Shown here piece after piece: positions 26,714 through 39,525 of a stretch of DNA of 64,000 bases; position 1 is the first letter of the stretch, and each line of letters opens with the position of its first letter. The position numbers were made by a program, and so were the translations under genes. The notes under the pieces were generated by a model. The model worked only from the letters and a program-made list of their open reading frames with translations. It had not been told where the DNA came from and did no database searches. This DNA is from Pantoea phytobeneficialis (GTDB taxonomy: Bacteria; Pseudomonadota; Gammaproteobacteria; Enterobacterales; Enterobacteriaceae), in contig NZ_CP024636.1 of assembly GCF_009728735.1 (NCBI RefSeq), positions 983,749 through 1,047,748 on the forward strand, read 5' to 3'.

Positions 26714-28240
26714 GTGAGCTATCAATCTGTCGTTGAGTTGAAAAAGCTTAAGCAACATAAACCGACCAAATTTACCGTCGGTGACAAAGATATTTTGCTG
26801 ATCCGTGAAGGTGATCGTGTCCATGCTTTGCAAGCCAAATGCCCCCATGCTGGCGCACCACTCGAACAAGGGGCGGTATGCGGAGATGAATTGGTGTGCC
26901 CCTGGCATAAGGCGGTGTTTGGCATTGAAGATGGCAGGATGCGTGAGCCGCTGGCTCTGGCGGATTTGAAAAACTATCCGGTACGTATCGAACAGGGGCA
27001 GGTCTGGGTCAACACCAAAGCCATGTCCTCAGCCACGCTGCCTGCGACTGAACGAGAAAAACCGGTTTGCGTAGTGCTGGGATCGGGGGCGGCAGGCAGC
27101 GCAGCATTGTGGACGCTGCGACACGAAGGCTTCACCGGGCATCTGGTTCTGATTGAGCGCGAAGCTGAGGCACCCTACGATCGTACCGCGTTAAGTAAGT
27201 TTGTCCCGGCGGGAAAAATGGCTATCGAAGAGGTGCCGCGTTTACTGAAAGACGATGTGCTGGGGCATGTTGAGCGTATTCAGGCCAACGTGGTGGAGCT
27301 GGACAGTGCGGCGCAACAGTTGACGTTCTCCAATGGTCAGACCTTACCCTTTGATCAGCTCCTGATTGCCAGCGGTGGTAGCGCGCAGCCACTGGACATT
27401 CCTGGACGGGATTTGCCTGGTGTTCACCTGTTGCACTCGCTCAGCCAGGCCGCGTCGCTGCTGGAGGATGTTGATGAAACCCATCAGATCGTGATTGTTG
27501 GCAATAGCTTCATTGGTATGGAGTTGGCGGGCGCGCTGCGAAACCGGGATGTTGATGTCACCGTATTGGCGCGTCACCCACTGCCGTTTGCTAAACAATT
27601 TGGTGATGAAATTGGCCAATATTTTCGCGAACTGCACACCGGAAATGGGGTGAAGATGGTGCAGGGGGAACCGCAGGCGCTGATCGGTACTGAACACGTT
27701 GAAGCCATCACGCTGAAAAATGGTAAGCAACTCACGGCAGGTCTGGTGCTGTTTGCAACCGGTATTCAGCCAGTTACCGGATTTATCCATGATCTGGCAA
27801 TGCAGGCAGATGGCAGCCTGACCACGGATAGTCAGCTACAGGTGGCGAAAAATATCTGGGCAGCGGGTGATATTGCCTGTTATCCCACGCCAAATGGGCC
27901 ACTGCGTATCGAGCACTATCGGGTGGCGCAGCAACAGGGTCGAATTGCTGCTCTGAACATGTTGGGGCAACGCCAGCTGTTTGACCGTGTGCCCTTTTTC
28001 TGGACCGCACACTACGGCACGCGCTACGAATATCTGGGACATGCCACAGAATGGGATGAATACCGTTTACTGGGATCATTACAGGACAAGCGTTTTATCG
28101 CCTTTTATGGGCAGCAGGGAAAGCTGGCGGCAGCTTGTTCAGCGGGCATGTATACCTTGACGGCAGCGCTGGTAGAACTGATGCAGCAGCCGATGACAAT
28201 GGCGCAGGGAATAGCGCTGTTTGAAGAACATCAAGGTTAA
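26714..28240 (+). CDS. FAD-dependent oxidoreductase with N-terminal Rieske domain
   Basis: 508 residues. The first 95 form a Rieske 2Fe-2S domain with Cys43-x-His45 (KCPHAGAPL) and Cys62-x2-His65 (VCPWHK). Then a two-nucleotide-fold flavoprotein: FAD-binding VVLGSGAAGSAALW near 115, NAD(P)H-binding IVIVGNSFIGMELAG in the middle, ATG motif LFATGIQP and the second FAD motif IWAAGDIACYP. The architecture is that of AIFM3/ferredoxin-reductase-like proteins that pass electrons from NADH through FAD to an iron-sulphur centre. The electron acceptor is unknown. It lies in the slot where E. coli has dgcC, between psiF and proC. Confidence 0.85.
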   Translation: MSYQSVVELKKLKQHKPTKFTVGDKDILLIREGDRVHALQAKCPHAGAPLEQGAVCGDELVCPWHKAVFGIEDGRMREPLALADLKNYPVRIEQGQVWVNTKAMSSATLPATEREKPVCVVLGSGAAGSAALWTLRHEGFTGHLVLIEREAEAPYDRTALSKFVPAGKMAIEEVPRLLKDDVLGHVERIQANVVELDSAAQQLTFSNGQTLPFDQLLIASGGSAQPLDIPGRDLPGVHLLHSLSQAASLLEDVDETHQIVIVGNSFIGMELAGALRNRDVDVTVLARHPLPFAKQFGDEIGQYFRELHTGNGVKMVQGEPQALIGTEHVEAITLKNGKQLTAGLVLFATGIQPVTGFIHDLAMQADGSLTTDSQLQVAKNIWAAGDIACYPTPNGPLRIEHYRVAQQQGRIAALNMLGQRQLFDRVPFFWTAHYGTRYEYLGHATEWDEYRLLGSLQDKRFIAFYGQQGKLAAACSAGMYTLTAALVELMQQPMTMAQGIALFEEHQG

Positions 28241-30673: not shown

Positions 30674-31198
30674 ATGTCATTACCCATCTATCTGATCGGC
30701 GCACGCGGTTGCGGTAAAACCACCATTGGCCAGGCGCTGTCGCAGGCGCTCGGTTACGCCTTTCGTGATACCGACCATCACCTGCAAATCACCACTCAGC
30801 GTACCGTGGCGGAAATCGTGGCGGCTGAAGGCTGGGATAGCTTTCGCGCGCGCGAAAGCGAGTCGCTTCAGGCGGTCACTGCGCCCGGTACAATCATTGC
30901 CACCGGTGGCGGTATGGTGCTGGCCGAGGTGAATCGTCGCTTTATGCGTGAGCATGGCCAGGTTATCTGGTTGAATGCGCCTTCAACGGTGCTGGCCGAC
31001 CGACTGGTGCGTCAGCCAGAAGCGGCGCAACGCCCGACCTTAACCGGCCGTCCGATTGCCGAAGAGATGGGCGATATCCTGCGTCAGCGTGCGCATCTTT
31101 ACCATCAGGCGGCGCACCATGAGGTGAATGCCATGCAGTCGCCGGATTTGGTGGTGGAAGCGATCCTGCAATCCCTTTCTCTGGCGCGTGCCAGCTAA
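30674..31198 (+). CDS. aroL: Shikimate kinase II AroL
   Basis: 174-residue cytoplasmic kinase that phosphorylates shikimate with ATP. Walker A is [11 protein letters not shown] at residues 8-18, the shikimate site includes FRDTDHH, the lid region is around [15 protein letters not shown], and the Walker-B-like TGGGMVL is present. Length and position before yaiA match E. coli. In E. coli it is under TyrR and TrpR. I could not pick out a convincing TyrR box in the 284-base upstream gap, which otherwise holds no gene and only weak promoter-like AT-rich sequence. Confidence 0.96.
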
Positions 31199-31214
31199 CG
31201 TCTGCAAATTCCCC

Positions 31215-31271
31215 GTAACGGCGCGTTAAATCGCGCGCTTTTAAACCCCGCGCGATTAATCGCGCCGCTCC
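31215..31271. repeat. Palindromic repeat between aroL and yaiA
   Basis: A diverged long copy: GTAACGGCGCGTTAAATCGC, spacer, then GCGCGATTAATCGCGCCGCT. The repeat interrupts what is a tight gene pair in E. coli. Confidence 0.8.
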
Positions 31272-31363
31272 GTAAATTATCGTGATCCTCATTGTCTATA
31301 CTTAAAAACGGACAGGGGATTACTGCTGTCCGTTTGGATAACTGAGTTACCCAGGAGGGCAAT

Positions 31364-31555
31364 ATGCCATCAAGACCACCTTACCCGCGCCAGGCCCGCA
31401 TCGTCACCGTTGAAAAAGGCACGGCGGGCAATACCGTCACCTGGTACGAATTACGCGCCGATCATCCACGCCCGGACTCGCTAATTAGCGAACATAAAAC
31501 TGAAGCGGAAGCGCAGGATGCCAAAAATCGCTATGAAGATGTGGAAAAAGAGTAA
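31364..31555 (+). CDS. yaiA: Small conserved protein YaiA
   Basis: 63 residues, the same length as E. coli YaiA and clearly homologous: [45 protein letters not shown]. Cytoplasmic, function unknown. CAGGAGG precedes the ATG. It retains its place after aroL, where the TyrR-regulated aroL-yaiA-aroM cluster lies in E. coli. Confidence 0.93.
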
Positions 31556-31836
31556 TATCGGCTGGCAAGGATGCCAGTAATGACTTGCCGTTATTAACCA
31601 TATTTTTCTCTTCCCGTGAATTCGCTGCAAAGCGGCCAGAAAGTTATCGTCTTTTCTGCGCTTAATTCTCTCTGCCTGATAAAATCACTCAGTTTTTACT
31701 TTATTCCTCATTTTATGCTGCCTTAATTTCCTGCCATTTTTGCTGGTACAAAATTTGCGCTTGACCACAAAAACCTGACGTTTTAATTTCGGGGTATTGA
31801 ATCAGGAACTCAGTTCCAGATAGTGAAACTACTTTT

Positions 31837-32589
31837 ATGACCACACTCGAAAATGCCGCCGCAGTGCTTAAGTTATTCCAGCGCTTTGGCGTGACGCAGG
31901 GGCATCCCGGCCTCACCTTCACCGAGGTGGTTGAGGCATTAGAACTGCCAAAAAGTACCGTTTCCCGTCTACTGGCGACGATGGAAAGTCAGGGGTTACT
32001 GGAACGCGATCCAGACAGCCGCTGCTTCCATATTGGTCGCGTACTGCTGTCGGTTGCGGGGCATTATCTCTCCACACCGTTGGTGGATAGTGCTTCGGGC
32101 GCGATGGCGCGCCTGGCCTCCAGCACCGGATGCATGGGGTATATCTCGGTGTTGGATGGGCACGATATCCTTGTGATGCGTATGTATCACGGACGCCTGT
32201 TTACCCAGTTGATTACCCCTCCGGGCACGCGGATGCCGGCGGCGGGGACGTCCACCGGTCGCGTGTTGCTGGCACAAAGCAGCGATGAAGAAGTTCGGGC
32301 GCGCTTTGCCGACGAGTGGCATGCCGCCTCACTTAACTCTCCGCTGGATGTTGATGCGCTTTGTACCGAGCTGGCCACTATTCGTCGCCAGGGGTGGGCG
32401 CTGGCACGCAATGAAACGTTACCGGGCATCAGTTCGATGGCGGTTGCTGTCACCAATAAACATCGCGGCGAAAGTGTCGCGCTCTGTCTCTCATTTCTTT
32501 CACAGGAAGCAGCCCCGGGTTATCCGGAAGCGCTGCTCAATGAATTACGCGCCACTGCGGCCATCATGGCCGAAAAATATGGTGCCTGA
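31837..32589 (+). CDS. IclR-family transcriptional regulator
   Basis: 250 residues: winged helix-turn-helix at about 1-70 (LTFTEVVEALELPKSTVSRLLATMESQGLLERD) and an IclR effector domain (about 80-245, with GMxxRTGC-like segment around LASSTGCMGYISVLD and GRVLLAQSS). It lies directly upstream of the OPT transporter-DUF1177-aroM genes on the same strand and is the obvious candidate regulator of them. It has no counterpart here in E. coli, where yaiA is followed by aroM. The 281-base gap upstream (31556-31836) is AT-rich, with no gene seen. Confidence 0.9.
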   Translation: MTTLENAAAVLKLFQRFGVTQGHPGLTFTEVVEALELPKSTVSRLLATMESQGLLERDPDSRCFHIGRVLLSVAGHYLSTPLVDSASGAMARLASSTGCMGYISVLDGHDILVMRMYHGRLFTQLITPPGTRMPAAGTSTGRVLLAQSSDEEVRARFADEWHAASLNSPLDVDALCTELATIRRQGWALARNETLPGISSMAVAVTNKHRGESVALCLSFLSQEAAPGYPEALLNELRATAAIMAEKYGA

Positions 32590-32749
32590 TTTTACGGCGT
32601 AATATTTCGCGCCACACCAGGGAAATAACAGGCCTTCGGGCCTGCTTATTTCAACCGTCAGGGAATGATTATTTAACTCAATACCGCCGTCCCGCGTGTC
32701 GGGCGGTGCGTAATCACGTTTTCGCCAGGGTGAATTTACGGGGAATAAC

Positions 32750-34309
32750 ATGCGTCACACCAATCCAATAAAAAGTCTCGGAGTGGGTTTAATGCTGGTA
32801 TTGCTGTCCGTTGCGGGCGCAATTATCGGCGTACAATTAATTACGACCATCGGGGTCACCCCCAATACCTCAATTATCGGCGCGCTCTTTGCCATGCTAC
32901 TGGCGCGTATTCCGTTGAAATGGTATCAAAGCTACCGTTCGGTCGAAGTGCAGAACCTGGCGCAAACGGCCATCTCTTCCGCCACTTTTGGTGCTGCCAA
33001 CAGTTTGCTGATGCCGATTGCTGTGCCCTGGGCGTTGGGTGAACCACAATTGGTGCTGCCGCTGTTTGTCGGCGTCAGCGCGGCGATGCTGCTGGATGCT
33101 TATCTGCTCTATCGCCTGTTTGATACCCGCGTATTCCCGGCCAGCAACGCCTGGCCGCCGGGCGTTGCGGCCGCCGAAGCGATCAAAGCCGGTGACAAAG
33201 GTGGCCGTCAGGCGTGGCTGCTGGTGGTGGGGATTGTCGGCGGGATTGTCGGCTCGATGCTGAAGATCCCGATGTCGGCATTTGGCACCGCGTTTATCGG
33301 CAATATCTGGGCGCTGACGATGCTCGGTGTTGGCTTCCTGTTGCGTGCTTATTCCCAGCCAGTGGCGGGCATTGATATCAACGCGCTGTATATCCCCCAC
33401 GGCGTAATGGTGGGTGCCGGTCTGGTGGCGTTGATTCAGGTGGTGCAGGTGATCCGCAGTGGTCGCAATGAGGCGATCAATGTCAGCCGTAGCGACAGCG
33501 AAGTGAAGCGCTCGCTCGGTTTCGGCACCGTTGGTTACATCGTTATCTCGGCATTACTGGCGCTGGCGGGCGGTTTGTGGAGTCAGATGGGCCTGCCGAT
33601 GCTGGTGTTATTTATCGTCTATGCCGCCTTTGCTGCCTTTGTGCATGAGTTGATTGTCGGTATTGCCGCGATGCACTCCGGCTGGTTCCCGGCGTTTGCT
33701 GTGGCGCTGATTACCTTAATCCTGGGTATTTTACTCGGCTTCCCGCCGTTGGCGCTGTGTCTGCTGTGTGGCTTTACCGCCGCTACCGGCCCGGCGTTTG
33801 CGGATATGGGCTACGACCTGAAAGCCGGTTTTATCCTGCGTGGTAACGGCGCGGATGTGCAGCAGGAGCTATGGGGGCGTCGCATCCAGCTGATTGCCGC
33901 GATGATCGCTTTTGTGATCGCCATTCCGGTGGTGTGGTACGCCCATAACCTGTTCTTCGCAGAGAACCTGCTGCCGCCAGTGGCGCGCGTATATGCCAAA
34001 ACCATTCAGGCCGGTGCAGAACCGGGTATCGCAGGCAGCCTGCTGATGTGGGCCATTCCTGGTGCGATCATTCAGTTGATTGGTGGACCGAAGCGTCAGC
34101 TTGGCGTTCTGCTGGCGACCGGCTTGCTGATTAACAACGCGGCTGCCGGATGGGCGGTGCTGGTAGGGATTGCGCTACGCGTTCTGATCCTGCGCGTCTG
34201 GGGCGAGCGTGGCCGGTCACCGATGGAGGTGATGGCGGCAGGTTTTATCGCCGGAGATGCGCTCTACAGTTTCTTCCATTCACTTTTTGCCAGTAGCAGT
34301 AAGAAATAA
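32750..34309 (+). CDS. OPT/YSL-family oligopeptide transporter-like protein
   Basis: 519 residues with about fourteen membrane segments. It shows the OPT-family layout of repeated glycine-rich hydrophobic helices and the motif NAWPPGVAAAEAIKAGDKGG, resembling the NPG/KxxG region of OPT proteins, plus LYIPHGVMVGAGLV. OPT proteins are proton-coupled importers of peptides or metal chelates. 160 bases separate it from the IclR gene; the start has a GGGGAATAAC leader. It is followed after 14 bases by the DUF1177 gene and then, 2 bases later, by aroM, so these three form one operon. Confidence 0.82.
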   Translation: MRHTNPIKSLGVGLMLVLLSVAGAIIGVQLITTIGVTPNTSIIGALFAMLLARIPLKWYQSYRSVEVQNLAQTAISSATFGAANSLLMPIAVPWALGEPQLVLPLFVGVSAAMLLDAYLLYRLFDTRVFPASNAWPPGVAAAEAIKAGDKGGRQAWLLVVGIVGGIVGSMLKIPMSAFGTAFIGNIWALTMLGVGFLLRAYSQPVAGIDINALYIPHGVMVGAGLVALIQVVQVIRSGRNEAINVSRSDSEVKRSLGFGTVGYIVISALLALAGGLWSQMGLPMLVLFIVYAAFAAFVHELIVGIAAMHSGWFPAFAVALITLILGILLGFPPLALCLLCGFTAATGPAFADMGYDLKAGFILRGNGADVQQELWGRRIQLIAAMIAFVIAIPVVWYAHNLFFAENLLPPVARVYAKTIQAGAEPGIAGSLLMWAIPGAIIQLIGGPKRQLGVLLATGLLINNAAAGWAVLVGIALRVLILRVWGERGRSPMEVMAAGFIAGDALYSFFHSLFASSSKK

Positions 34310-34323
34310 TCAGGGAATCCAAC

Positions 34324-35256
34324 ATGAGTTTACAGCAGACACTGCAAGTCTTTGAGTTACTCGATAGCGCTTTCGTCGATGGTCAGCAGGTGGTTGATTT
34401 GTTCGCCGCCTATCCGGGCGTCAGCGCCAGCACCAAACGCGTCAGCGGCCCGAAAGGACGTACCGACTTTGTGCGCATCGATATTCCGGGGGCACAGGGT
34501 AAAAGCAAGGGCGGCAGCGCCCCAACGCTCGGCATCATTGGCCGTCTGGGCGGTATCGGTGCGCGCCCGACGCGCATCGGCATGGTGTCGGACGCCGACG
34601 GTGCTGTGGCAGCGGTCAGCAGCGCGCTGAAGCTGGCGCAGATGCAGACCAAAGGCGATGTGTTGGCCGGGGATGTGATCATCACCACCCATATCTGCCC
34701 GGATGCGCCGACCCGTCCACATGAGCCGGTGGATTTTATGGATTCACCGATCGACGATGTCACCATGAACGATAACGAAGTGGTGGCGGGTGTGGATGCC
34801 ATCCTCTCCATCGATACCACCAAAGGCAACCGTATCCTCAATTACAAAGGTTATGCGCTGTCGCCGACGGTGAAAGAGGGTTACATCCTGCGCGTGTCGG
34901 AAGATCTGTTGCGTATTATGGAGATGACCAGCGGTCGCCCGGCGGTAACTTTCCCGATTACCACCCAGGACATCACGCCGTACGGTAACGGGGTTTATCA
35001 CCTCAACAGTATCCTGCAACCTTCAACCGCGACCGATGTGCCGGTGGTGGGTGTGGCAATTTGCGCGGAATCGGTGGTGCCAGGTTGTGGAACCGGAGCC
35101 AGCCACGAAGTGGACATCGCCAGCACGGTGAAGTTTGCCGTGGAAGTGGCGAAAGAGTTTGGCCGCGAAACCTGCCAGTTCTATGACGCGCAGGAGTACG
35201 CACTGCTGCTATCTTTGTATGGTAGCCTCAGCCATCTGCGTTCCCGGAAATCATAA
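34324..35256 (+). CDS. DUF1177 family protein
   Basis: 310 residues, cytoplasmic. Features: a Gly-rich LGIIGRLGGIGARPTRIGMVSDADGA, GDVIITTHICPDAPTRPHEP (possible metal or phosphate ligands), FMDSPIDD and VAICAESVVPGCGTGASHEV. The family has no assigned activity that I know. The conserved His, Asp and Cys residues and a fold-like pattern suggest an enzyme acting on the imported compound, but that is inference. GGGAATCC precedes its ATG. It sits between the OPT gene and aroM. Confidence 0.8.
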   Translation: MSLQQTLQVFELLDSAFVDGQQVVDLFAAYPGVSASTKRVSGPKGRTDFVRIDIPGAQGKSKGGSAPTLGIIGRLGGIGARPTRIGMVSDADGAVAAVSSALKLAQMQTKGDVLAGDVIITTHICPDAPTRPHEPVDFMDSPIDDVTMNDNEVVAGVDAILSIDTTKGNRILNYKGYALSPTVKEGYILRVSEDLLRIMEMTSGRPAVTFPITTQDITPYGNGVYHLNSILQPSTATDVPVVGVAICAESVVPGCGTGASHEVDIASTVKFAVEVAKEFGRETCQFYDAQEYALLLSLYGSLSHLRSRKS

Positions 35257-35258
35257 GT

Positions 35259-35936
35259 ATGAAAACATCCCTGATTACCCTGACCATCGGTCAGTCTCCG
35301 CGCAGCGACATTCTGCCGCTGTTGCAGGCCCATCTGCCAGTAGAGCAGGTGGAGCACGCCGGTTTGCTTGACGGCCTCACCCTTGCGGAAGTGGAGCAGC
35401 ACTATACGCCAGTTGCCGGTGAGAAAGTGCTGGTGTCGCGTATGCTGGATGGGCAGCAGGTGCGTCTGTCGGCGCATCAGGTTGAGCAGGGATTGCAGCA
35501 GAAGATCTATGCACTCGAGGATCAGGGTTACAACACGATCCTGCTGCTGTGCACTGGCGAATTTGGCTCGCTGAAAACCCATAAAGCGTTGCTGCTGGAG
35601 CCGGATCGTATTATCCCGCCGTTGGTCGGCGCGATTGTGCATGGGCACAAAGTCGGGATTGTGGTGCCGGTTGAGGAGCAGATCGCGGAACAGGCCAATA
35701 AGTGGCGCAATCTGGGTACGCCGCCGTGTTTTGCGGTAGCCAGCCCCTATCTGGCGCAACAGGCGGATCTGGTGGAGGCGGGGCTGTCGCTTCAGGAGCA
35801 GGGGGCTGATGTGGTGGTGCTCGATTGCATCGGTTATCACCAGAAGCATCGTGATTTTCTGCAAAAGATGTTGGGCATTCCGGTGCTGTTGTCCAACGTG
35901 CTGGTTGCCAAGCTGGCTGCGGAATTGATCGTTTAA
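35259..35936 (+). CDS. aroM: AroM family protein
   Basis: 225 residues, exactly the length of E. coli AroM, and alignable throughout: SLITLTIGQSPRSDILPLL, YNTILLLCTGEFGSL, LEPDRIIPPLVGAIV, VGIVVPVEEQ, ADVVVLDCIGYHQKHRDFLQ, PVLLSNVLVAKLAAELIV. The two cysteines (near residues 95 and 187) lie where Asp/Glu racemase-superfamily enzymes carry their catalytic pair. It starts 2 bases after the DUF1177 stop. E. coli AroM is named only for position next to aroL. Here it is the third gene of a transporter operon, which points away from aromatic synthesis. A terminator follows. Confidence 0.88.
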   Translation: MKTSLITLTIGQSPRSDILPLLQAHLPVEQVEHAGLLDGLTLAEVEQHYTPVAGEKVLVSRMLDGQQVRLSAHQVEQGLQQKIYALEDQGYNTILLLCTGEFGSLKTHKALLLEPDRIIPPLVGAIVHGHKVGIVVPVEEQIAEQANKWRNLGTPPCFAVASPYLAQQADLVEAGLSLQEQGADVVVLDCIGYHQKHRDFLQKMLGIPVLLSNVLVAKLAAELIV

Positions 35937-35942
35937 TGCATG

Positions 35943-35967
35943 GGGATCACAAGTTGTGATCCCTTTT
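35943..35967 (+). terminator. Terminator of the OPT-DUF1177-aroM operon
   Basis: GGGATCAC-AAGTT-GTGATCCC followed by TTTT, just after the aroM stop. Confidence 0.8.
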
Positions 35968-36040
35968 GTCATTTCGCGTGACAGATCAGCGAGTTCCCTT
36001 GTAATCTGCCTGTTATCTTAATGTGCTGTGAGGAAGTGAT

Positions 36041-36325
36041 ATGCTCAACGTGAGTGAGTATTTTGACGGAAAAGTGAAGTCCATTGGTTTCGATAGCGTC
36101 ACCATTGGTCGCGCAAGCGTGGGCGTAATGGCGGAAGGCGAATACACCTTCGGCACTGGCCAGCCGGAAGAGATGACTGTGGTCAGCGGCGCGCTGAAAG
36201 TGCTGCTGCCGGGTGAAAGCGAGTGGAAGTGGTATGAAGCAGGCAGCGTGTTCAACGTGCCGGGCCACAGCGAATTCCATTTGCAGGTGGCTGAGCCAAC
36301 GTCTTATCTGTGCCGCTATCTGTAA
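36041..36325 (+). CDS. ppnP: Pyrimidine/purine nucleoside phosphorylase PpnP (YaiE)
   Basis: 94 residues, a single small cupin domain. PpnP phosphorolyses several nucleosides to base plus ribose-1-phosphate. It matches E. coli Yai[69 protein letters not shown] precedes the ATG. Position after aroM is as in E. coli. A strong terminator follows. Confidence 0.95.
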
Positions 36326-36619
36326 GTATCCTATCCAGGCCGCAGCGTTTCGCTGCGGCCTTTTTTATTATCGGTAGCACAGGGATGGTGCTAACACCGT
36401 TAAATCGAAAATTCAGAAAATATTTTATCTGTATTTAAAACGGTTATTTGTTTTATTTTTCTTCATTCCTTTCAAGAAATTAAAAATGTTCTTAGTTACT
36501 TGGTGTTGTAATAATGCCATGAAAAATATAGCTTTTTCTTTATTGGCAAGGTTGCGATCGACGGTCATGTAGATTAAAAAGTATATTCACATCGCATGAT
36601 GTATTTATCTGGAGGCTGT
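36326..36619. other. AT-rich intergenic stretch before the orphan gene
   Basis: After the ppnP terminator (36338-36366) the sequence is strikingly AT-rich, with many A/T runs, and contains no ORF I would support. It probably holds the promoter of the 36620 gene and is the kind of DNA silenced by H-NS. Confidence 0.6.
36338..36366 (+). terminator. Terminator of ppnP
   Basis: GGCCGCAGCG-TTT-CGCTGCGGCC followed by TTTTTT. Confidence 0.95.
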
Positions 36620-37468
36620 ATGTCTTTTGCTAATGTCTATCGATTGCCGCCCGGGATAACCCGGCACTTATTTAATCCTGTTACAGCACGAGCAACCACG
36701 GAAATAAAGAAAGCGGTTAAGTTTATTGGTCATAACTGTGCCTGCCTGTCTACCAATCAATGCAAAAAGCACAGCGTGAACGAGGGGCTGAAAGAGTTAC
36801 AACCGACCAATAAACACTGGTTTATGAAGGATTCCCCTATGCTTCCGCGGCTGGTTGGCGTGCCGGGATCAGTGAAGTTAACCGGTAATGCGGTAACACC
36901 TTTCAGTGCAGGAACATTGAAGAATGAAAAAGAATCTGGCAAGGAGAAACTCAGCCTGAATAACTTGTGGGCCTGTTATCCCGAAAAAACAACACCATGC
37001 CCGGTGGAGTTGAAAAATAAGCCCGGTGCTACGTTGTCTGAGTCCGAACAGGCGGATTCCGGGGTTGAAAGTCTCTCGGAGTCGGAATCGCCGGATAACG
37101 TTTTTATTACTAACTGGGATAATCTTGGTAAGGAGAGTTTTTCGGTACAAAAAAATCCGGAGCAGACCAATAATTTACCGGAAGAAAGTGAACCGGGCGA
37201 GTATAACCCATTCCGTATTATCGTTGCGGAAAATGCCGGAAAGTTCTCGAATAAAAGGGCGTGGCAATTTAGTGAGAAGTTTGAGAATTATCATCCGCAG
37301 TTCAAAACGATAAAAGAAGAACCGTCTTCTCAGACACCTGTTGAAGAAACCGTTATCCGGCATGAGAAGGTGTTGGTCGTCGGCGAAAAATTAAAAATGA
37401 AGAATGTGCAGAATGTCTTTGCAATAAAAAGAGATGATCTATATCAGGAGGAAACGACACGACTTTAA
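36620..37468 (+). CDS. Orphan hypothetical protein, possibly horizontally acquired
   Basis: 282 residues from the ATG at 36620, which has a GGAGG ribosome site; an ATG at 36596 lacks one. No signal peptide or membrane span. The N-terminal third is basic with a small Cys cluster (NCACLSTNQCKKH). The middle is low-complexity, rich in Ser, Glu, Asn and Pro (SGVESLSESESPDN). The C-terminus is charged and Lys/Glu-rich. Base composition and codon use are visibly more AT-rich than neighbours. I recognise no family. It occupies the ppnP-rdgC slot where E. coli K-12 carries the remnant ykiA. A secreted effector or a phage-derived orphan are possibilities without direct support. Confidence 0.7.
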   Translation: MSFANVYRLPPGITRHLFNPVTARATTEIKKAVKFIGHNCACLSTNQCKKHSVNEGLKELQPTNKHWFMKDSPMLPRLVGVPGSVKLTGNAVTPFSAGTLKNEKESGKEKLSLNNLWACYPEKTTPCPVELKNKPGATLSESEQADSGVESLSESESPDNVFITNWDNLGKESFSVQKNPEQTNNLPEESEPGEYNPFRIIVAENAGKFSNKRAWQFSEKFENYHPQFKTIKEEPSSQTPVEETVIRHEKVLVVGEKLKMKNVQNVFAIKRDDLYQEETTRL

Positions 37469-37491
37469 ATCTCATCTCTAATGCACATTCT

Positions 37492-37564
37492 GTAGCGGCG
37501 CGATTTATCGCGCGCCATTGACGTTAATGTTGCGAACAACAAGCGCGATAAATCGCGCCGCTAC
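37492..37564. repeat. Long form of the palindromic repeat
   Basis: Left arm GTAGCGGCGCGATTTATCGC and right arm GCGCGATAAATCGCGCCGCT enclose a spacer of about 30 bases. It lies between the convergent orphan gene and rdgC, 7 bases from the rdgC stop. Confidence 0.92.
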
Positions 37565-37571
37565 GAATAAG

Positions 37572-38483
37572 TTAGCGCTGCGCTTCTCCGCCCAGAGCTT
37601 CCACCAGATTACTGATCAATGCCGCCAGTTCACTGGTCATCAGAATGAAATCAGCATCGAAACGCTGAGCAAAATCATCACGATCGATATCGTCATTTTG
37701 CTCACGCAGGGTATCGCTGAATTTCAGGCGTTTCACTGACGCATCATCAGCGATAACAAACTGAATCCGCTCCTGCCAGTCGAGCGCCAGTTTGGTGACC
37801 ACTTTACCGGCTTCGATATGGGTAGCGATTTCGTCCGACACCAGATCCTGCTTTTTACAGCGAATCACGCCGCCTTCTTCCAGCAGTGCTTTTAGCTCGG
37901 CTTCATCCATCAGCGCGAAACCAGCAGGCAGCTCGCCTGAACGCACCCACTCGGTCAGGGTCAGTTCAATCGGGCTTTCCAGGGTTAATGGCACCACCGG
38001 AAGCGAACCGAGGCTTTTGCGCAGCAGTGCCAGGGTATCTTCGGCTTTTTTTGCGCTGGCGCAGTCAACGATAATCAGATTGTTGACGGTGTCGATCCAC
38101 ATAAAGGTCTGGCTGAAACGGCTAAAGGCGCGTGGCAGCAAGCTGTGGAGCACTTCATCTTTCAACGAATCCTTTTCGGTCTTCTTCAGCTTGCGACTTT
38201 GTTCCGCTTCCAGCTTGTCGATTTTGGCTTCCAGCGCCTGCTTTACCACCGGCGAAGGCAGAATTTTTTGCTCGGTACGGGCACAGATCACAATCTGACC
38301 ATTAACTACGTGCGTCAGCGCCTCGCTACGGTTACCCATAGGGGAAACCCAACCGGTTTTTGCCATATCCTGGCTACCGCAGGGTGAGAAGGTGAAGGCA
38401 TCGAGCTGTTTTTCCAAATCGTCTGCGGACAGCGGAATGTCACGATTCAGACGATAAACCATCATATTTTTAAACCACAACAT
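37572..38483 (-). CDS. rdgC: Recombination-associated protein RdgC
   Basis: 303 residues, the usual length. RdgC forms a DNA-encircling ring dimer that inhibits RecA-promoted strand exchange. Start [19 protein letters not shown], followed by the conserved [19 protein letters not shown] and central helices, is diagnostic. Position divergent from mak is as in E. coli. Confidence 0.96.
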
Positions 38484-38613
38484 CGGGATTCCTTACCGGG
38501 GGAAATCTATCAGTCAGCGCGCATCATAGCGAAACATCGGCTGGGTTTCATTGCCTTTACCGCAACGGCTCTCTACTGTGTCTCTCAACCTAACGAATAA
38601 TGAGGAATAAAAC

Positions 38614-39525
38614 GTGCGTATTGGTATCGATTTAGGCGGCACCAAAATTGAAGTGATTGCACTCTCAGATCAGGGGCAGGAATTGTTTCGTCACCGCGTG
38701 AATACCCCGCGTGACGACTATGGTGCGACGGTACAGGCGATTGTTGATCTGGTGCATCTGGCAGAAGAGAAGACCGGGCAGCAGGGGACGGTGGGATTGG
38801 GTATTCCGGGCACCATTTCGCCCTATACCCAGCGGGTAAAAAATGCCAACTCCACCTGGCTCAATGGTCAGCCGTTGGATAAGGATTTGGCGCAGGCGCT
38901 GAATCGTGACGTGCGTATTGCCAACGACGCGAATTGTCTGGCGGTATCTGAAGCGGTTGATGGTGCCGGTGCGGGAAAACCGCTGGTATTTGCGGTGATT
39001 ATTGGCACCGGTTCTGGCGCCGGGGTGGCAATTAATGGTGAGTCACGCATTGGCGGTAACGGCAATGCCGGTGAATGGGGCCACAATCCACTGCCGTGGA
39101 TGGACGAAGATGAGCTGCGTTATCGTGCGGAAGTACCGTGCTATTGCGGCTTGCAGGGCTGCATCGAGACGTTTGTGTCCGGTACCGGATTTGCCATTGA
39201 TTATCAGCGCTTGAGCGGCAACGCGCTGAAAGGGGCGGAGATCATCAAGCTGATTGAGCAGCAGGATCCGGTGGCGGAGCTGGCGATGCGCCGTTATGAA
39301 ATGCGTCTGGCAAAATCGCTGGCGCAGGTGGTGAATCTATTGGACCCCGATGTGATCGTGCTGGGCGGCGGGATGAGCAATAACGATCGTTTGTATCAGA
39401 CCGTGCCGACGTTGATGAAGCAGTGGGTGTTTGGTCGTGAGTGCGAAACGCCAGTGTTGAAGGCGGTGCATGGTGATTCCAGTGGCGTGCGCGGTGCGGC
39501 GTGGCTGTGGCCTTTAAAAGACTAA
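38614..39525 (+). CDS. mak: Fructokinase Mak (ROK family)
   Basis: 303 residues from a GTG with a TGAGGAA ribosome site. It phosphorylates fructose (and weakly mannose) with ATP. Seen: N-terminal ATP motif [14 protein letters not shown], sugar-binding [11 protein letters not shown] and [11 protein letters not shown], and the ROK zinc site [17 protein letters not shown]. Very close to E. coli Mak. In E. coli araJ follows; here a repeat and a convergent permease do. Confidence 0.96.

Follow-up and report, generated by a model that had tools for sequence, protein, structure and literature searches.

The window analysed in this study is a 64-kb stretch of Pantoea phytobeneficialis DNA (contig NZ_CP024636.1, positions 983,749 to 1,047,748 of the forward strand). 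Between yaiA and ppnP of the aroL locus it carries an operon of four genes, which encode an IclR-family regulator, an importer of the OPT family, a protein of the DUF1177 family and AroM. We consider it rather probable that this operon represents a widespread catabolic module in the form that enterobacteria carry at the aroL locus, with the steps and the history proposed below, and that the AroM of Escherichia coli is a remnant of it.

Operon structure at the aroL locus

The gene order of the window is that of E. coli (aroL-yaiA-aroM-ppnP-rdgC-mak) plus three genes between yaiA and aroM. The flanking genes on the plus strand are aroL (30674..31198; shikimate kinase, Pfam SKI 3.7e-43), yaiA (31364..31555; named by its position, from same-place homologues and the E. 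coli order) and ppnP, also called yaiE (36041..36325; Pfam Ppnp 2.8e-34); rdgC and mak lie further downstream. The E. coli aroL-yaiA-aroM locus has the same site and flanking order (the record is filed as a plasmid and contains chromosomal genes), and its AroM is 45% identical to that of Pantoea; however, it lacks the IclR, OPT and DUF1177 genes that Pantoea has between yaiA and aroM.

The four operon genes are all on the plus strand. The IclR-family regulator (31837..32589; Pfam IclR_C 1e-22, HTH_IclR 3.3e-13) contains a winged helix and a C-terminal effector domain, both over the Pfam cut-off. It is followed by the OPT-family importer of 519 amino acids (32750..34309; Pfam OPT 7.4e-28), which scores 98 bits with PF03169 against a cut-off of 25.8, the best stretch being residues 212-513. 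The DUF1177 protein of 310 amino acids (34324..35256; Pfam DUF1177 3.1e-133) scores 443 bits with PF06675 (cut-off 25), and the AroM of 225 amino acids with C98 and C190 (35259..35936; Pfam AroM 5.2e-76) scores 255.4 bits with PF07302 (cut-off 23.8) over positions 3-219 of 219. The intergenic gaps are 160 bases between iclR and the OPT gene, 14 bases between the OPT and DUF1177 genes, and 2 bases between DUF1177 and aroM; the coordinates of the open reading frames (ORFs) thus agree with the spacing of 14 and 2 bases that a preliminary description of this DNA had given for the structural genes.

A near-identical locus was found in Pantoea sp. AS-PWVM4 (L042). Two further loci, titled Enterobacter ludwigii (L044) and E. 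cancerogenus (L047), are 85-99% identical to the window proteins over the whole region, and their Enterobacter species labels look wrong.

Recurrence of the DUF1177-AroM linkage

The preliminary description had staked its reading on the recurrent co-occurrence of DUF1177 and AroM in other genomes, and such co-occurrence was found in two separate surveys. In the sample of the window's own GTDB family (149 genomes), DUF1177 is present in 17 genomes and AroM in 57; AroM adjoins DUF1177 in 14 of the 17 DUF1177 genomes, one of them (G219) with broken copies. The second sample comprised 299 genomes of Bacillota, the phylum of a Paenibacillus genome, with the AroM search made in 298. DUF1177 was detected in 33/299 of these genomes (about one in nine), and AroM matched in 32/298; 28 of the matches were strong (>100 bits), and 24 of these belonged to DUF1177 genomes. 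Both families are rare in a wider phylum sample (DUF1177 in 2/349 genomes and AroM in 11/349, the window's own genome included in both), so their adjacency is not due to abundance. Chance adjacency was rejected on the family and Bacillota surveys. Among 14 control genomes, Haloferax volcanii contains both families and E. coli contains AroM only.

Loci were fetched from 31 of the 33 Bacillota genomes with DUF1177 (two with fragmented hits were left out), and BLAST searches with reference proteins were used to label the neighbours within 8 kb of DUF1177. Peptide-type importers, either OPT or dipeptide ABC, occurred in 24/31 loci, AroM in 21/31, a second Asp/Glu racemase in 19/31, exopeptidases of the M29, M20 (ArgE counted in) or M18 families in 18/31, and DUF917 (now S-Me-THD-like in Pfam) and PucR-type regulators in 14/31 each. 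The typical gene order is PucR, OPT, racemase, DUF917, DUF1177, AroM, M29. In 47 enterobacterial aroL loci without DUF1177, which served as a control from another phylum, no OPT, racemase, exopeptidase or DUF917 gene was labelled, and a Dpp-like ABC gene was found in four.

Similar gene sets are carried by plasmids. A plasmid of the haloarchaeon Salinigranum rubrum contains dipeptide ABC genes, DUF917, DUF1177 and AroM, together with an M29-type aminopeptidase, a racemase and an aspartoacylase-like gene. On plasmids of Klebsiella pneumoniae and Sodalis praecaptivus, the genes for IclR, OPT, DUF1177, AroM, PepE and a racemase stand in one run. The first four genes and their order are as in Pantoea; whereas PepE and the racemase are additional, and these operons are not at aroL. 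Compared with the Pantoea proteins, the plasmid-borne DUF1177 is 76-77% identical over 292 residues, AroM 46-48% and OPT 65% (L005, apparently the Sodalis plasmid). On the K. pneumoniae plasmid pRHB26-C08_2 (L126), which is typed conjugative, the six-gene operon is flanked by insertion sequences, which suggests that the module is probably mobile. Importer and peptidase families thus differ by lineage (OPT or dipeptide ABC; M29, S51, M20 or M18).

The named loci compared here are the nearest 80 of 561 relatives. Raw locus counts hold near-copies, and some genomes occur twice (e.g. L002/L117, L009/L110 and L118/L161). Greedy gene calling missed the AroM of L122, a locus whose record annotates it. 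Among the loci with both AroL and DUF1177, OPT and IclR are present in 56/56 and AroM in 54/56 (near-copies included).

Other arrangements were also observed. Serratia oryzae (L086) and Serratia sp. Ag1 (L091) have an aroL operon of IclR, OPT and DUF1177 without AroM, and no AroM elsewhere in the genome, which is the reverse kind of loss from that seen in E. coli. In L013, L014 and L015, an NCS1 permease, a nitrilase-like CN_hydrolase, IclR and DUF1177 occur without OPT or AroM, a second setting of DUF1177. The genome G627, of the same class, contains two different DUF1177 clusters (L018 and L019), one with a class V aminotransferase and OPT, the other with AroM and a TctC receptor. Moreover, a protein of about 280 amino acids adjoins DUF1177 in six Bacillota loci (L163:6155-7000, L166, L171, L174, L176 and L178), in five of them between DUF1177 and AroM; the L163 copy was scanned and gave no Pfam match. 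It is possibly a further member of the pathway.

Racemase likeness of AroM and loss of the cysteine pair

Sequence comparison places AroM as a distant relative of the Asp/Glu/hydantoin racemases. In these racemases, a pair of cysteines, one in each half of the protein, has its role at the two motif positions. The AroM profile matched PDB 2eq5, a hypothetical hydantoin racemase, weakly (E 0.0012); the likeness was stronger to the racemases of the fetched clusters, where a profile alignment by hhalign (60 rows of AroM, 37 of racemases) gave a probability of 94.6% (pairwise E 6.6e-8). In both the racemase profile and 2eq5, the two Cys motifs line up with C98 and C190 of AroM; the superfamily (PF01177) also includes 5lfd. 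Of the three cysteines in Pantoea AroM (C98, C157 and C190), only the first and the third are conserved across the family in operon AroM.

The two cysteines follow the operon. Both are present in 57/57 AroM of aroL-locus operons and in 56/56 other DUF1177-linked AroM, and in 7/9 AroM that are neither operon-linked nor orphan and aroL-linked; whereas only 2/46 orphan aroL-linked AroM have both, S98/C190 being the commonest combination (28/46). Near-copies are included in these counts, in which the grouping of aroL-locus loci without a labelled AroL was corrected. After dereplication, C98 and C190 each occur in 70/70 operon AroM, and in 3/45 and 34/45 orphans, respectively. In the protein searches, which covered the best 120 of 8000, of 757 and of 1272 matches, both cysteines were found in 115 of the best 120 relatives of the window AroM and in none of the best 120 relatives of E. 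coli AroM, counted irrespective of operon state.

The cysteine is not the only residue concerned. In the dereplicated set, Q12, R15, D17, G35, D38, R61, C98, Q141, S162 and Y164 fall from 68-70/70 in operon AroM to 1-6/45 in orphans, and within this set Q12, R15, D38, R61, C98, Q141 and Y164 fall from 69-70/70 to 2-5/45. The lost residues include ones that operon AroM share with Bacillota and archaeal AroM; whereas G133, D189, P208 and V209 are kept in 45/45 orphans. Since the core is kept and one coherent set of residues is lost, orphan AroM are not merely drifting. The median ratios of nonsynonymous to synonymous substitution (dN/dS, Nei-Gojobori) are 0.225 for orphan AroM (33 pairs), 0.217 for aroL-locus operon AroM (584 pairs) and 0.44 for other operon AroM (265 pairs), and orphan aroM thus looks to be under purifying selection. 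We read these data as a loss of the original reaction, with the protein apparently retained for something else. E. coli AroM has Ser at position 98 and, unlike Pantoea AroM, lacks most of the conserved polar residues; it is probably a relic that keeps the fold and has lost most of its conserved active-site-like residues.

The earlier suggestion that AroM is racemase-like, with two cysteines in suitable places, accordingly fits operon AroM, where the pair is aligned with the motifs; it does not fit the E. coli type, since the pair is absent there. The association between the loss of the operon and the loss of the cysteine is strong by number of sequences and weak by number of independent events. 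Because the operon was lost about twice on the tree, the sequences are not statistically independent, and an independent-pairs comparison yielded two pairs, too few for significance.

Evolutionary history at the aroL locus

Phylogenetic trees were reconstructed from 124 dereplicated AroM sequences. All aroL-linked AroM form one clade, with a support of 100 in the SH-like approximate likelihood-ratio test (SH-aLRT), and under a midpoint root this clade is nested among AroM that are associated with OPT and DUF1177 elsewhere. A more careful tree was made from 65 of the 124 sequences; it kept 13 of the 47 rows from free operons, thinned a large orphan clade and omitted four orphan rows that were long or odd (L029, L031, L032 and L035), which the quick trees include. 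In this tree, aroL-linked and other operon AroM are split with supports of 100/99. Lone aroL-linked AroM stand inside the operon-bearing ones, a pattern that needs two changes; a single change does not suffice on any of 200 bootstrap trees. The tree of OPT and DUF1177 (49 rows) recovered the same aroL-locus group, plus two loci from Chromobacterium and one from Buttiauxella. In these trees, as in the topology tests and the 8-kb counts, a small number of aroL-locus loci in which AroL was not labelled (e.g. L075 and L095) were grouped as free.

A topology uniting every lone AroM in a single clade was rejected by the approximately unbiased (AU) test (p 0.0007). The intermediate locus L028, which adjoins Rahnella in the tree, keeps iclR, the palindrome upstream of it (see below) and an AroM with both cysteines, and is without OPT and DUF1177; it matches the expected look of a half-decayed operon. 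A tblastn search of the orphan aroL loci found no remnants of OPT or DUF1177, and L028 alone retains iclR. The simplest reading of these sequences is that the whole operon reached aroL once and that its front part was then lost at least twice, one of the losses lying in the line that leads to E. coli, Salmonella, Klebsiella and their kin. The proposal that the operon is the ancestral setting of AroM is supported by both the AroM and the OPT-DUF1177 trees, given the midpoint root, and we infer the direction of change on the same basis.

In E. coli itself, aroM matched 5375 of 5426 genomes; a blastn search of the same 5426 genomes with the DUF1177 gene of the Klebsiella plasmid gave no match. 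In four records filed as plasmids (L193-L196; from E. coli, Klebsiella, Enterobacter and Salmonella), the aroL-aroM-rdgC region is the usual chromosomal one, and the plasmid labels of some such records look doubtful.

Regulation

Upstream of iclR, 54/59 aroL-locus operons and 6/33 operons elsewhere (near-copies included) have the palindrome GGAAC-N2-5-GTTCC, in most cases with a half-site after it; the six elsewhere represent four distinct loci, including Burkholderia and Pandoraea. In the window, the putative IclR operator (31805..31829, plus strand) consists of GGAACTCAGTTCC at 31805-31817 and the half-site GAAAC at 31825-31829. This is the only exact match to the palindrome in the 64 kb, where chance alone would give about 1.5 sites if up to one mismatch is tolerated. 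The conserved palindrome suggests that IclR regulates its own unit, which may extend from iclR as far as aroM. A probable iclR promoter (TTGACC, 17 bases, TAATTT; 31761..31789, plus strand) was read by eye; it was not among the matches listed by a consensus promoter scan of the window. A CTTGAC block is conserved across the yaiA-iclR spacers of 20 aligned loci.

Several operons elsewhere have a gap of only about 30 bases between iclR and the OPT gene, as compared with the 160 bases here, which contain a weak hairpin (32629..32644, plus strand). This hairpin is a possible partial terminator and does not by itself rise above chance. After aroM, the terminator proposed in the preliminary description corresponds to a hairpin with a T-run (35942..35964, plus strand). 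It is plausible as a terminator and has no significance by itself, the scan having returned 8 terminator-like sites in the window against 6.4 (sd 2.6) in shuffled sequences.

Proposed pathway and alternative explanations

The substrate, the reactions, the order of the steps and the regulation are proposed from the gene associations described above. The OPT protein, or a dipeptide ABC system elsewhere, would import a small peptide-like compound; a dipeptide that is cyclic or has modified stereochemistry is most likely. AroM would act as a cofactor-free two-cysteine epimerase that inverts or isomerises a carbon of the substrate, joined in this by the second racemase where one is present. DUF1177, the main partner of AroM, would probably carry out an amide- or ring-opening step. 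A dipeptidase would finish the pathway; it is encoded in the module elsewhere, and in Pantoea an S51 protein might serve in trans, since the genome has one S51 protein, outside the operon. The unit would be controlled by the autoregulatory IclR protein. The module would have entered the site between aroL-yaiA and ppnP once; IclR, OPT and DUF1177 would then have been lost in the E. coli lineage, leaving an AroM that kept its fold.

A peptide-like substrate is suggested because importer and peptidase families are exchanged between lineages while their roles stay. A cyclic amide is suggested by DUF917, by the hydantoinase-like partners, by the presence of two racemases and by the link to cyclodipeptide oxidases (CDOs) given in the available text of PMC11055893. 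Overall, a peptide or cyclic peptide is most likely, and the simplest guess is a dipeptide that is cyclic or epimerised. A more far-reaching version can be put forward only tentatively, and as a whole we doubt it more than we believe it: the OPT-racemase-DUF917-DUF1177-AroM-peptidase set would be an undescribed pathway of bacteria and archaea for importing cyclic or epimerised dipeptides, in which two cysteine racemases correct the stereochemistry, DUF1177 represents a new class of ring-opening amide hydrolases, and E. coli AroM is a pseudoenzyme without an active site, kept for a second function.

Several observations weigh against the proposed module and its history. AroM is missing from 3/17 of the DUF1177 genomes in the family sample, from within 8 kb in 10/31 Bacillota DUF1177 loci, and from Sulfolobus acidocaldarius, a control genome that has DUF1177 and gave no AroM match. 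Searches of 12 genomes or records that contain DUF1177 loci found no AroM in four (two Serratia, Chromobacterium haemolyticum and Hydromonas), and some DUF1177 genes have NCS1 and a nitrilase-like enzyme as their company. In the aroL-locus form, neither a peptidase nor a second racemase was labelled within 8 kb (0/56). AroM scores below the Pfam cut-off of PF01177 (Asp_Glu_race; 18.5 against 31 bits), and its orphaning amounts to about two events on the tree. The AroM trees were rooted at the midpoint only. The AU test did not reject the operon-bearing aroL-locus AroM plus L028 as one clade (p 0.158), and the exact order of events within the aroL clade is therefore not proved. Moreover, no relative of DUF1177 was detected in PDB searches, in Pfam or with hhalign against the partner families: the PDB sequence and profile searches gave chance-level hits only, and a Pfam scan at E up to 10 returned DUF1177 alone. 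An M20-like metallopeptidase was considered as a candidate for DUF1177 and set aside; the hhalign probability was 2-3% over 32-47 residues around D90, which is chance level and a lead only. Across 135 DUF1177 sequences (near-copies included), conservation reaches at least 97% at 39 polar residues.

Among the alternatives, the most serious is that the module degrades hydantoins, ureides or small cyclic amides tied to purine breakdown, with AroM as a hydantoin-type racemase. The PucR-type regulators and DUF917 of the Bacillota loci, units of DUF917, hydantoinase/oxoprolinase and AroM with ABC importers, and the NCS1-nitrilase-IclR-DUF1177 units would all suit this explanation, and a purine or hydantoin reading of similar clusters is offered in the available text of PMC11055893. 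However, the commonest partners are peptide-type importers and M29, S51, M20 and M18 exopeptidases, which a purine route does not need, and there is no hydantoinase among the nine window proteins scanned; we regard the explanation as unlikely.

Somewhat less probable is a salvage of isoAsp, D-Asp or succinimide peptides, in which AroM epimerises the Asp carbon and PepE removes Asp. PepE prefers an N-terminal Asp, and an S51 (PepE-type) gene is located within 8 kb of DUF1177 in 22/34 dereplicated non-aroL loci (among them L075, L095 and the Paenibacillus locus L114), an Asp/Glu racemase in 11/34 of the same loci, and an aspartoacylase-like gene in the haloarchaeal cluster. The 31 Bacillota loci have M29, M20 or M18 and no S51, so that Asp specificity is not general.

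It is highly improbable that the history ran in reverse, with a lone AroM first at aroL and the importer and DUF1177 joining later. The AU result for the operon-bearing aroL-locus AroM plus L028 and the midpoint rooting leave room for it; whereas the nesting of aroL-locus AroM among AroM already linked to OPT and DUF1177, the agreement of the OPT-DUF1177 phylogeny with the AroM tree, the Cys pair and other residues that operon forms share with Bacillota and archaeal AroM and that are mostly gone in orphans, and the decay-like gene content of L028 all favour capture of the whole operon followed by loss. Least probable of all is that OPT imports metal chelates, as YSL-like transporters would, and that AroM and DUF1177 modify the chelator: two records carry an OPT/YSL annotation, whereas no recurrent metal-related partner was seen among the neighbours labelled or scanned, and dipeptide ABC importers replace OPT elsewhere.

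Other genes in the window

A 290-amino-acid ORF without a Pfam match lies between ppnP and rdgC (36596-37468); among the loci compared, it is present only in the near-identical L042. At 26714-28240, the window encodes a protein of 508 amino acids in which an N-terminal Rieske-type ferredoxin part is fused to a ferredoxin reductase-like part.

Relation to known systems and significance

According to the available text of PMC11055893, AroM, OPT importers, DUF917, hydantoin racemases and peptidases are enriched or found in CDO clusters outside cyclodipeptide synthase (CDPS) loci. For the CDO clusters, that paper of 2024 already described a racemase-like structure prediction for AroM and an enrichment of AroM next to OPT and DUF917 genes; the AroM-OPT-DUF917 association and the racemase likeness are thus not new. 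The neighbourhood in the window differs from these clusters, as neither CDOA (nitroreductase-like) nor CDOB is among the nine proteins scanned (30674-39522). Neither the aroL locus nor the loss of cysteine in orphan AroM comes up in the available text of PMC11055893, and a full-text literature search for DUF1177, which gave one paper, on another DUF, did not list it. In a search of the open-access literature, PMC11055893 was the only directly relevant paper noticed; nothing was found that describes a module of DUF1177 and AroM, the capture of such a module at aroL, or orphan AroM without the cysteine pair.

We know of no established function for aroM. If E. coli AroM is a remnant, this would offer a testable reason for the missing function. 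As a probable remnant without its partners and most of its conserved active-site-like residues, E. coli AroM would be the wrong protein to target in experiments, and the original chemistry should be sought in operon AroM of the Pantoea or Klebsiella-plasmid type. More generally, the survey points to a recurrent set of genes for uptake and peptide processing that is centred on DUF1177 and occurs also on a haloarchaeal plasmid.

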